Source: an uncultured Clostridia bacterium (lineage in GTDB: Bacteria; Bacillota; Clostridia; Oscillospirales; Ruminococcaceae). Taken from it: a stretch of 49,388 nt of DNA. The DNA is taken from positions 1 through 49,388 of the forward strand of contig CANQNG010000013.1 in the NCBI GenBank assembly GCA_947625155.1. The letters run 5' to 3'. Shown here in pieces: positions 47,496 to 49,388 of this stretch. The notes beneath the pieces are model-generated. The model was not told the DNA's origin. It searched no databases and saw nothing but the letters and a program-made list of their open reading frames with translations. Position 1 is the first letter of the stretch; every line of letters begins with the position of its first letter. A program made the position numbers and the translations under genes.

Positions 47496-48875
47496 TCACG
47501 CTGTGAATGGCTCTGCTTTTTCCGGATCGCACGGAACATCCGTGCTGGCAAGCGTTTCGGGAGAGATCCCTTTCACCCGGTACCCCAGCCCCAACAGGCA
47601 GAAGAACAGCGGGCTGACGTAATACGTGGTATTCCCGAAAAACGCCGAAACAAGATACCCGAATGCGGCGATCAGGGCAACTATGGTCGGTACATCGAGT
47701 TTCCGCTTGCTGCGCAAGCCGTGGAGATAGACCTCCAGCACAGCCCAGATATAGAGCAGCCCGGCAGGAATGCCGAAAAATAACATTTGCTGTAGGTATT
47801 CGTTGTGCGAACGGTCACAGCCTGTGGGACGAAGGACTTCGCTTTGTGTATCAATGCCCCATCCGGTCAGCGGTCTTTGCGAGATCAGTTCCAGCGTTTT
47901 CCCCCAGATCGCCCACCGGGACGAACCGGCATGCCCGGCATCTTCGTTGGAAACGATCTTGCCGAGGTCAAAAAAGAGTGTCAGAAAATTCCGGAAAACG
48001 GTATCATACCAGAACCCCATGACCAAGGAAATGCCGAGATACAGCCCTAAAACACACCACATGGCTATGTTCGTGCGCTTGTGGATGATGCAATGCACGA
48101 TCTGCGCAAAGAGCAAGCCAAACGCCACCGCCAGATAACACCCGAACGTATCGTCCCGGATCAGGACGACTGTGTTCACAGCAAACGAAAGCCAGCCAAG
48201 GATCCGGAATGTCCTATTTTTATCCAAAACAGCCATTCCAGCAGATGCCAGCAGCACTAAAGTCAGGTAATAGCCAAAGTGGTTAAAATGCGAAAATACA
48301 CCGGACACATTCTTGTATACATGGTTGAAGATCGGGATCTCTACGCAATACAGATCGATCAGGCATAGGATCCCCATTAACAGCCCACTTATGGTGAAAA
48401 TGCGGAGAATATTGTATTTCAAGGTGTTGTTTTCGATCAGGGATGCGCAAAAGAAATAGGCGAAAATGTACGTAATATAGGTAAAAAGGTCCTCATTTCT
48501 TCCCCCTGCCATTTCATTGGAGACAACGGCAGCATTATAGGCGACCGTTAGTATCATCAGGATAGAAAAGAGGGCGAAAATAGCAAAAGCAGAATTCTCC
48601 TTGATCAGGCTCTTTACACCCTGCCGGGCGTTCAGGCGCTTGCCAAAGTACAAAACCAAGGCGCAAACCGCAGCTACCCTTGCGATCAGGTCAATATCGT
48701 CCACAAAAACGGGATACGACCAAACACTGATGCAGTTCCGGATGACGTACAACAGCGGGGATGTCAGGAACAGCACCACAGGCACAGCGCAGATCCATTC
48801 AATGAAATGGTAGGGCAAATACCGAAAGAATTCTGAAAAAGTCTTGACCTGACTTAATTTTGTGGGGGTCTCCAT
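47496..48875 (-). CDS. O-antigen ligase / Wzy-type polymerase family membrane protein
   Basis: A 459-residue protein with ten to twelve membrane helices. The family segment is recognisable: SSRWAIWGKTLELISQRPLTGWGIDTQSEVL, then SHNEYLQQMLFFGIPAGLLYIWAVL. Members join or polymerise undecaprenyl-linked oligosaccharides on the outer membrane face; in Gram-positive bacteria they serve capsule or wall polysaccharide. No glycosyltransferase cluster is in view. The start follows AAGGCTGGTGA. The leader includes the first copy of a 45-bp repeat also found at 49270, and a possible 15-codon upstream frame (MKKIRIFACRSVKGW). Confidence 0.82.
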   Translation of the reverse strand: METPTKLSQVKTFSEFFRYLPYHFIEWICAVPVVLFLTSPLLYVIRNCISVWSYPVFVDDIDLIARVAAVCALVLYFGKRLNARQGVKSLIKENSAFAIFALFSILMILTVAYNAAVVSNEMAGGRNEDLFTYITYIFAYFFCASLIENNTLKYNILRIFTISGLLMGILCLIDLYCVEIPIFNHVYKNVSGVFSHFNHFGYYLTLVLLASAGMAVLDKNRTFRILGWLSFAVNTVVLIRDDTFGCYLAVAFGLLFAQIVHCIIHKRTNIAMWCVLGLYLGISLVMGFWYDTVFRNFLTLFFDLGKIVSNEDAGHAGSSRWAIWGKTLELISQRPLTGWGIDTQSEVLRPTGCDRSHNEYLQQMLFFGIPAGLLYIWAVLEVYLHGLRSKRKLDVPTIVALIAAFGYLVSAFFGNTTYYVSPLFFCLLGLGYRVKGISPETLASTDVPCDPEKAEPFTA

Positions 48876-48920
48876 TTGTTCACCAGCCTTTGACAGATCT
48901 GCAGGCGAAGATCCTGATTT

Positions 48921-48965
48921 TTTTCATTTCAGGGAGCAGAGATCGCCGCCTACCGTTTTCAAGTG
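48921..48965 (-). repeat. 45-bp leader repeat, copy 1
   Basis: Matches 49270-49314 in 42 of 45 positions. On the minus strand it reads GAAAACGGTAGGCGGCGAT, then CTGCTCCCTGAAATGAAAA, right behind the start point of the O-antigen-ligase promoter. Confidence 0.85.
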
Positions 48966-48977
48966 TGTTCTGAAATA

Positions 48978-49006
48978 ATTATAGCATGATCTCCGGTATT
49001 TGTCAA
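48978..49006 (-). promoter_or_regulatory. Promoter of the O-antigen-ligase-type gene
   Basis: On the minus strand TTGACA, 17 bp, TATAAT, with TGC before the -10 element. Confidence 0.92.
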
Positions 49007-49038
49007 CGATCCGTCTGTAGATCCGCCGAAAAAAGTGC

Positions 49039-49067
49039 TTGACAAAGTGCGGGCTGTGTGGTATAAT
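49039..49067 (+). promoter_or_regulatory. Promoter of the putative antitoxin RNA
   Basis: TTGACA, 17 bp, TATAAT, a perfect consensus with no reading frame downstream on this strand. Confidence 0.92.
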
Positions 49068-49073
49068 GATAGA

Positions 49074-49168
49074 AAGAGCACACCATCAAACGTTTTGACG
49101 GCTGCTCCACAGGCTACTTTAATGAAATAGTAACCGTCCAGATACCAGCTGGGCGGTTACTTCCTTTT
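49074..49168 (+). ncRNA. Small RNA convergent with the toxin gene (candidate type I antitoxin)
   Basis: A transcript of about 95 bases is delimited by the promoter at 49039 and a 12-bp terminator stem (GTAACCGTCCAG/CTGGGCGGTTAC, then TTCCTTTT). Near its 5' end GAGCA/TGCTC closes a hairpin around 49076-49113. The 3' half is complementary to the end of the peptide gene on the minus strand, including its stop codon. This is the geometry of Fst/RNAII and TxpA/RatA systems, where the RNA blocks toxin synthesis. The assignment as antitoxin is inference. Confidence 0.65.
49129..49168. terminator. Shared terminator of the toxin-antitoxin candidate
   Basis: A 12-bp stem with a seven-base loop. On the plus strand it is followed by TTCCTTTT; on the minus strand by TATTTCATT, a weaker tract. 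The toxin stop codon lies within the stem. Confidence 0.75.
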
Positions 49169-49249
49169 ATCGGAATCACGGAACGTGATGTACGCAATTA
49201 CAATGTTTGTAAATGCAATAATGAAGTTAAAAAACTCATTCCATTCCAT
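49157..49249 (-). CDS. 30-residue hydrophobic peptide, candidate type I toxin (Hol_Tox/TxpA-like)
   Basis: The peptide starts MEWNEFFNF, has one membrane-spanning segment (about residues 6-22, IIAFTNIVIAYITF) and a charged end DSDKRK. GGGAGGGAA lies eight bases before the ATG. This form, a short acidic start with aromatic residues, one helix and a Lys/Arg tail, matches the putative holin-like toxin family of Firmicutes, which damages the membrane when overproduced. A strongly expressed convergent small RNA overlaps its 3' end. Possible weak promoter on the minus strand: TTGATG and TAATCA about 17 bp apart near 49315-49345. The peptide is too short for standard gene calls, and its toxicity is not shown by the sequence. 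Confidence 0.65.
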   Translation of the reverse strand: MEWNEFFNFIIAFTNIVIAYITFRDSDKRK

Positions 49250-49269
49250 AACGTGTTCCCTCCCTTCCA

Positions 49270-49314
49270 TTTTCATTTCAGGGAGCAGGAATCGCCGCCT
49301 ACCGTTTTCAGGTG
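49270..49314 (-). repeat. 45-bp leader repeat, copy 2
   Basis: Second copy of the 48921 element, here in the 5' leader of the 30-residue peptide gene. Confidence 0.85.
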
Positions 49315-49322
49315 ATTATTCC

Positions 49323-49388
49323 GCACTCCGGAAAACATCAATCCGCCGGAAGGAAAACAACGATCCGCGGCAAGGAAAACGCCAATCC
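49323..49388. repeat. Three tandem 22-bp repeats at the right edge
   Basis: Three successive 22-bp units share GGAAAAC and end in ATCC (first unit GCACTCCGGAAAACATCAATCC split here by GGAAAAC). The array reaches the window edge and may continue. The period of two helical turns suits a protein-binding array upstream of the toxin gene. Confidence 0.75.

Follow-up and report, generated by a model that had tools for sequence, protein, structure and literature searches.

A probable chromosomal type I toxin-antitoxin module with a short antisense RNA, and its family in gut and rumen clostridia

The TxpA/RatA and BsrG/SR4 systems of B. subtilis combine convergent genes, which overlap at their 3' ends, with a small hydrophobic peptide carrying a basic end, and the locus described here has the same composition. 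In BsrG/SR4 the Shine-Dalgarno sequence is sequestered, the contact loop of bsrG contains a YUNR motif and the antitoxin has the stronger promoter (PMC7430163). Pairing starts at YUNR loops in BsrG/SR4 as well as in BsrE/SR5; SR4 then extends the helix over the Shine-Dalgarno sequence, and cleavage by RNase III takes place close to the stop codon (PMC7430163). For the interacting loops of TxpA/RatA no U-turn is reported in the accessible parts of the same source (PMC7430163). The par locus of pAD1 (Fst/RNAII) encodes an antitoxin of about 40 nt, has convergent promoters and holds its Shine-Dalgarno sequence in a 5' stem-loop, and first contact is made at the loop of the shared bidirectional terminator (PMC7472228). 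Convergent small membrane peptides with antisense RNAs, as found here, are also described from Clostridioides difficile (CD2517.1-RCd8 and others). The three characterised peptides have 50-53 aa and their RNAs a long complementary region (PMC6563280), a comparison that is by description only. The text of this 2019 review of type I systems in Clostridia, in its available form, reports no homology of the C. difficile peptides to known type I toxins and does not mention Ruminococcus (PMC6563280).

The stretch of DNA analysed here (in the following the window, 49,388 nucleotides) is the whole contig C13 of a draft genome of 1.96 Mb, which is 86.5% complete. A first-pass annotation had described a convergent pair of a small RNA and a membrane peptide, and the sequence confirms that this locus is real and that its description is correct. 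The minus strand encodes the toxin-like peptide MEWNEFFNFIIAFTNIVIAYITFRDSDKRK (49157-49249), which comprises 30 residues with one hydrophobic helix and ends in DKRK, just as had been claimed. Its frame runs from an ATG at 49247-49249 to a TAA at 49157-49159; an in-frame ATG further upstream (49276) would make a peptide of 39 residues. A small hydrophobic peptide with a charged C-terminus is a feature of type I toxin-antitoxin systems and is present in the window locus. The frame lies behind the Shine-Dalgarno sequence GGGAGGGAA (49256-49264, minus strand), which is predicted to be hidden in a stem CTCCCT...AGGGAG (49258-49285, minus strand). The leader motif ACGGTAGGCGG (49295-49305, minus strand) was found to be conserved in searches of the own genome and of relatives as well as in an unbiased test described below.

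The plus strand carries the promoter TTGACA-N17-TATAAT of the putative antitoxin RNA (49039-49067), which matches the consensus at 12/12 positions, has a TG before the -10 box and is kept at this position in relatives. The first-pass annotation was right to call this promoter perfect. A GTG frame of 31 aa (49035-49130) spans the RNA start and is the only plus-strand frame of at least 25 aa to do so. Since this frame begins upstream of the -10 box, the RNA is taken as untranslated. The predicted RNA of about 95 nt (49074-49168), with ends placed by promoter and terminator, has a predicted fold of -33.4 kcal/mol. A predicted 5' hairpin, GAGCA...TGCTC with an inner stem (49076-49107, plus strand), sits where the family has the motif CCGATAGACGGTTAGCCC; at this place the window RNA and some copies from the same genome show a lengthened, altered form. 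A stem-loop of 13 pairs (49129-49161) is common to both genes and is probably a two-way terminator; a T-rich run follows it on the plus strand. The proposed transcript of about 95 bases ending in a stem over the peptide's stop codon could thus be reproduced as a predicted RNA, the stem covering the TAA. Judged by promoter, terminator and overlap, an antisense RNA gene would overlap the gene of the toxin mRNA.

Both transcripts would finish in the same palindromic terminator and therefore be perfectly complementary at their 3' ends over about 40-45 nt, in contrast to overlaps of 114-120 nt in the B. subtilis systems, and of about 120 nt in TxpA/RatA (PMC7430163). The antitoxin is also shorter, with about 95 nt compared to 163-222 nt in the TxpA/BsrG systems of B. 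subtilis (PMC7430163). The layout had been likened to Fst/RNAII and to TxpA/RatA; the first likeness stands, given the short RNA and the shared terminator, while the locus is less similar to TxpA/RatA with its longer overlap. The family shares convergent promoters and a bidirectional terminator with Fst/RNAII, and the window copy is without a toxin promoter. It could hence be asked if the locus belongs to the Fst/RNAII (par) family itself, since short antitoxin, convergent promoters, bidirectional terminator and sequestered Shine-Dalgarno sequence are all found in par of pAD1 (PMC7472228). However, the PXXXG motif is absent, the window peptide being free of any proline, and the repeats are inverted here and direct (DRa, DRb) there, so that the RNAs share 5' motifs which are not complementary. 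Moreover, relatives of the peptide match Hol_Tox, and no Fst model appears among the Pfam and NCBIfam matches. As two defining features fail, membership in the Fst/RNAII family was rejected and is given next to no probability.

We regard the locus with good confidence as a chromosomal type I toxin-antitoxin module, and the candidate pair proposed from the window alone is now supported by comparative evidence. The minus strand would encode a single-helix membrane peptide whose mRNA hides its own Shine-Dalgarno sequence in a local hairpin, and the plus strand a short antitoxin RNA, made from a near-perfect promoter and probably in excess. By analogy with the described systems, pairing would probably begin loop to loop at the terminators, which mostly bear YUNR in the family, and would then spread through stem and stop codon, with RNase III cleavage and/or locked translation as the likely outcome. 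The peptide is very likely a self-poison, which the antitoxin would probably silence.

To look for further members, the pattern ACGGTAGGCGG-N105..135-TARCCGCC was used. It is present in nine of 150 related genomes (reversed control 0/150), in at least 114 stretches of named genomes and in 38 stretches of viral contigs. Among the 158 distinct matches listed, 103 encode a hydrophobic peptide whose end is basic or polar and whose frame terminates at the stop codon of the pattern; 18 of these 103 are viral contigs. Judging from the record titles, many come from rumen and gut, and Oscillospiraceae, Ruminococcus and Selenomonadaceae bins are among the sources. Matches in Streptomyces, Mycobacterium, Pseudomonas and others were taken as chance. 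A promoter with at least 11 of 12 consensus positions is found on the antitoxin side of 84 of the 101 listed peptide loci with enough sequence (control windows 16/659) and on the toxin side of 48 of the 103 listed (controls 8/672). At 63 of 101 listed loci the antitoxin has the higher-scoring promoter, at 27 the two promoters score equally, and at 11 the toxin promoter is ahead. The remaining 55 of the 158 listed matches have no peptide by our filter; an antitoxin-side promoter of at least 11 occurs in 6/52 of them as compared to 8/379 controls, so a few of them may be real.

From the 103 listed peptide-bearing loci 94 passed a filter for the antitoxin promoter, and 88 were left after removal of near-duplicates. 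The 88 non-redundant RNAs share a conserved motif with the consensus CCGATAGACGGTTAGCCC, which lies outside anything the search pattern selected for, and the toxin leader of many loci holds a sister motif, CGGTAGGCGGTTAGCCC, in whole or in part. The terminator consensus is TAACCGC...GGCGGTTA with a variable loop. RNAalifold supports 11 terminator pairs in the 88 sequences, and in four of these pairs both partners are exchanged in one sequence or more. A 5' hairpin is not predicted for this alignment. A covariance model, R1, was built from these RNAs. It matches the window at 49071-49165 with 41.4 bits, the window being one of the 88 training sequences. At E up to 0.01, R1 detects antitoxins in 65 of the 150 relatives, of which G066 has the most copies, 21; in the phylum-wide set, 46 of 398 genomes have a match at E up to 0.001. 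The E-values are rough due to a shortened calibration. The RNA family spans orders and classes.

An unbiased test was made at 62 R1 loci, seven of 69 having been set aside as training members. The exact leader motif is found at 17 of them (1/370 control windows), and at 28 if one mismatch is allowed (2/370). A hydrophobic peptide is encoded at 43 of the 62 loci and no clear peptide at 19. The 34 loci without a leader at up to one mismatch are a mixed group: a few have ACGGTGGCGG, some a Hol_Tox-type peptide and some none. As far as sequence comparison can tell, the window locus is thus a member of a large, little-noticed family of gut and rumen clostridia.

Several elements of the proposed control could be addressed by prediction. 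At 33 loci with a clear toxin promoter, to which the window does not belong, the mean predicted unpaired probability of the Shine-Dalgarno sequence is 0.11, compared to 0.25 with the upstream leader shuffled. The Shine-Dalgarno sequence is less accessible than in this control at 29 of the 33 loci and not so at four, a significant tendency. A YUNR motif occurs in the antitoxin terminator loop of 80 of the 88 RNAs (200 shuffles: mean 60.8, maximum 71) and in the mRNA-strand terminator loop of 65 (mean 49, maximum 58); since alignment columns served to delimit the loops, a few bases of the stem are counted with them. The predicted hidden Shine-Dalgarno sequence, the YUNR loop and the stronger antitoxin promoter are further likenesses of this family to BsrG/SR4. 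At 89 loci, pairing between the 5' domain of the antitoxin and the cognate leader differs weakly from that of shuffled sequences (p=0.03) and is no better than with non-cognate partners (p=0.26), so it is not considered specific. These comparisons give no support to a second contact at the 5' ends, as made by DRa and DRb in par, and the 5' parts share a motif instead of complementing it. Long-range 5'-3' pairing GGCGG/CCGCC within the toxin mRNA is predicted above 0.5 in only 16 of the 33 loci, both halves being fixed by the search pattern, and may be considered a possibility.

In the own genome parts of the region recur with 74-82% identity in five longer matches on the contigs C38 and C4. 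R1 detects six antitoxin copies, the window's included. Five of them face a convergent peptide that ends in (D/E)KRK, namely the window copy, three on C38 (two with identical peptide) and one on C4. The sixth, likewise on C4, lacks a toxin. This antitoxin-like orphan RNA (L027 1013-1102) has its own promoter and terminator and reaches as far as the RNA methyltransferase gene directly behind it, which encodes Methyltrans_RNA and PUA_4 domains and which we take to be rsmE. On C38 (L026) the toxin-antitoxin units form a tandem array and alternate with genes for type IV pilin-like proteins, which carry an N-terminal methylation motif (N_methyl in the two tested). It looks as though this array served to amplify or maintain the pilin cassettes. 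The leader motif CACCTGAAAACGGTAGGCGGCGA occurs eight times in the genome at up to one mismatch; a ninth match with three mismatches was taken as chance. One occurrence in the window is an orphan second leader with one mismatch (48943-48965, minus strand), situated in the 5' UTR of a gene of the Wzy_C (O-antigen ligase) family (47496-48875, minus strand). It is preceded by a promoter TTGACA-N17-TATAAT with 12/12 matches (48978-49006, minus strand), and orphan leader and promoter may drive the Wzy_C gene.

Where a copy in the own genome is complete, its leader reads promoter-AGAGCACACCTGAAAACGG, and both promoters together with the first bases of both RNAs form near-identical inverted repeats. 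The window leader is broken at 49313, and the sequence outward starts with TGATTATTCC. The 83 window bases that precede the leader motif contain no toxin promoter (best score 7/12), because the usual leader gives way to other sequence from 49313 on. The place of the toxin promoter is taken by one end of an insertion-like element (TGATTATTYC..., 49313-49388), the last 77 bases of the window aligning with the start of contig C8 (76/77 aligned, 100% identity). The end of C38 reads promoter-AGAGCACACCTGAA, then TGATTATTTC. The same two element ends recur where C9 ends and where C8 starts, in apparently one other gene, with CTAAAGG on either side. These ends of draft contigs fit an element with inverted ends TGATTATTYC and a target duplication of 6-7 bases, in which case C38 and the window would be two sides of one insertion. 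The window copy is probably a toxin which was cut off from its promoter by insertion next to an intact antitoxin gene. In genome G009 two parts of a homologous toxin frame are found at two contig ends; toxins of this family may therefore have been interrupted more than once. The insertion-like element was seen at five contig ends (window 49313-49388; L026 6740-6892; L030 1-160; ends of L215 and L216) and has inner repeats of the CAATCCGC...AAGGAAAACG kind; it is known from its ends alone. The first-pass annotation noted neither the multicopy family with its arrays nor the conserved leader, and it likewise overlooked that the toxin promoter is missing and that an orphan leader precedes the Wzy_C gene.

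Inverted repeats of this kind are also what a MITE-like element would present, with the promoter-bearing ends as its repeats and peptide and RNA as by-products, and the copies in tandem and near contig ends would agree with that. Selection on the peptide frame speaks against it. It was measured in two subfamilies, the WNxFF type of the window (13 sequences) and the IELI/FDL type (12 sequences), with 24-25 and 34 pairs of limited divergence. For these pairs pN/pS is 0.25 (WNxFF) and 0.27 (IELI/FDL), and 0.23 and 0.24 if the five codons overlapping the terminator are left out; over all pairs it is 0.42 and 0.43, where saturation is likely. Purifying selection of this strength (0.23-0.27) indicates that the frame is probably translated and constrained. 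The family moreover reaches across orders and classes. A MITE-like origin was therefore rejected and appears very improbable to us. The first-pass annotation had named missing conservation of the peptide frame in relatives as the outcome that would count against a toxin-antitoxin locus; instead the frame is conserved, as seen from relatives of the window peptide in three genomes of the same genus, from the family peptides and from pN/pS.

The window peptide itself has no match in Pfam or NCBIfam. A resemblance to the holin-like toxins had been suggested, and the Pfam check confirms it for some relatives and not for the window peptide. Among 31 family peptides nine match Hol_Tox at E up to 1 (best 1.4e-11), a number that gives no frequency because the 31 were chosen by hand for diversity. 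At the same threshold NCBIfam ComI, which has the name competence inhibitor there, is matched by five (best 2.6e-6) and PepG1 by two (best 5.7e-4); the latter represents SprG/SprF of Staphylococcus aureus, which the window peptide does not match. With PHROGs (E up to 0.1) an unnamed family was obtained for five of the 31 and nine other families for one each, one of them called holin. The DNA 48890-49314 shows no similarity to phage and plasmid records. When a Hol_Tox-type peptide was used instead, 27 phage records matched at E up to 1, the best of those listed with 0.03. Hol_Tox (PF16935) is encoded in 34 of 299 genomes of the phylum; of 14 control genomes, those of Bacillus subtilis and Lactococcus lactis have it, and a whole-genome search of the own genome gave none.

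On the RNA side, the earlier remark that the small RNA resembles no recognised antitoxin agrees with Rfam, which gives no family for it. At gathering threshold the whole window yields four tRNAs only, and 48880-49388 yields, at E up to 10, five weak matches far below gathering and no BsrG. In 19 relatives one ribosomal leader was detected and nothing at the toxin-antitoxin loci. BsrG is found at gathering at 10 of the 20 Hol_Tox loci examined (of 30 fetched). R1 places an antitoxin at the expected position beside eight of 30 Hol_Tox genes (E up to 0.03), five of them partial, with two equally strong matches elsewhere. R1-type loci with Hol_Tox-like peptides score 35.4 (L205), 26.3 (L061) and 24.9 bits (L096) against RF01412, for which the gathering threshold is 55, and a fourth such locus (L195) has no BsrG match. 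Because of the Hol_Tox matches of some relatives, the sub-threshold BsrG matches and the R1 matches beside Hol_Tox genes we consider the locus as probably a compact, divergent branch related by descent to the TxpA/BsrG (Hol_Tox) superfamily. At the Hol_Tox loci L284, L299 and L302 leader and antitoxin side seem, by eye, to share the sense motif GGGCGGTCA. The inverted-repeat design may be general to such systems.

The peptide could also be a benign or signalling membrane protein, for instance a regulator of a stress response, that is controlled by antisense RNA without being a toxin. Purifying selection and control of the Shine-Dalgarno sequence would look alike in both cases, with the sequence alone being known, and the ComI matches of five chosen family peptides would agree with such a role. 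The presence of up to 21 copies and the great diversity of the peptides fit toxins better, as do the apparent interruption in two genomes and the Hol_Tox and PepG1 toxin matches among relatives. We therefore judge a benign protein to be unlikely and prefer the reading as a toxin-antitoxin module.

The RNA family is absent from Rfam 15, and the window-type peptide from Pfam and NCBIfam. A literature search, which included the letters GGTAGGCGG and covered few subscription papers, found no description of the R1 RNA family, which is not proof of its absence. It seems that the kind of system is known and the variant new. Standard gene calling passes over both genes because of their small size, and the window type also escapes the peptide models; it is the RNA model and not the peptide that detects these modules and thereby provides a handle for annotators. 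The family links the short Fst-like layouts with the longer TxpA/BsrG systems, and up to 21 paralogues per genome offer a natural series on cognate specificity set by terminator loops. A more far-reaching picture is put forward tentatively and remains doubtful. In it, one RNA scaffold that is not in Rfam would serve radiating, very different membrane peptides in Clostridia and Negativicutes as an inverted-duplication cassette. The shared 5' motif CGGTAGGCGGTTAGCCC/CGATAGACGGTTAGCCC would perhaps dock protein or RNA dimers, and orphan antitoxins and orphan leaders, of which the one preceding Wzy_C (48875) is an example, would have been co-opted for the regulation of host genes or for the neutralisation of incoming copies.

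In Selenomonas and relatives (L104, L125, L127, L144, L092) the RNA motif is kept, the spacer is longer and the peptides are very short and Leu-rich. These selenomonad loci possibly constitute a separate subfamily.
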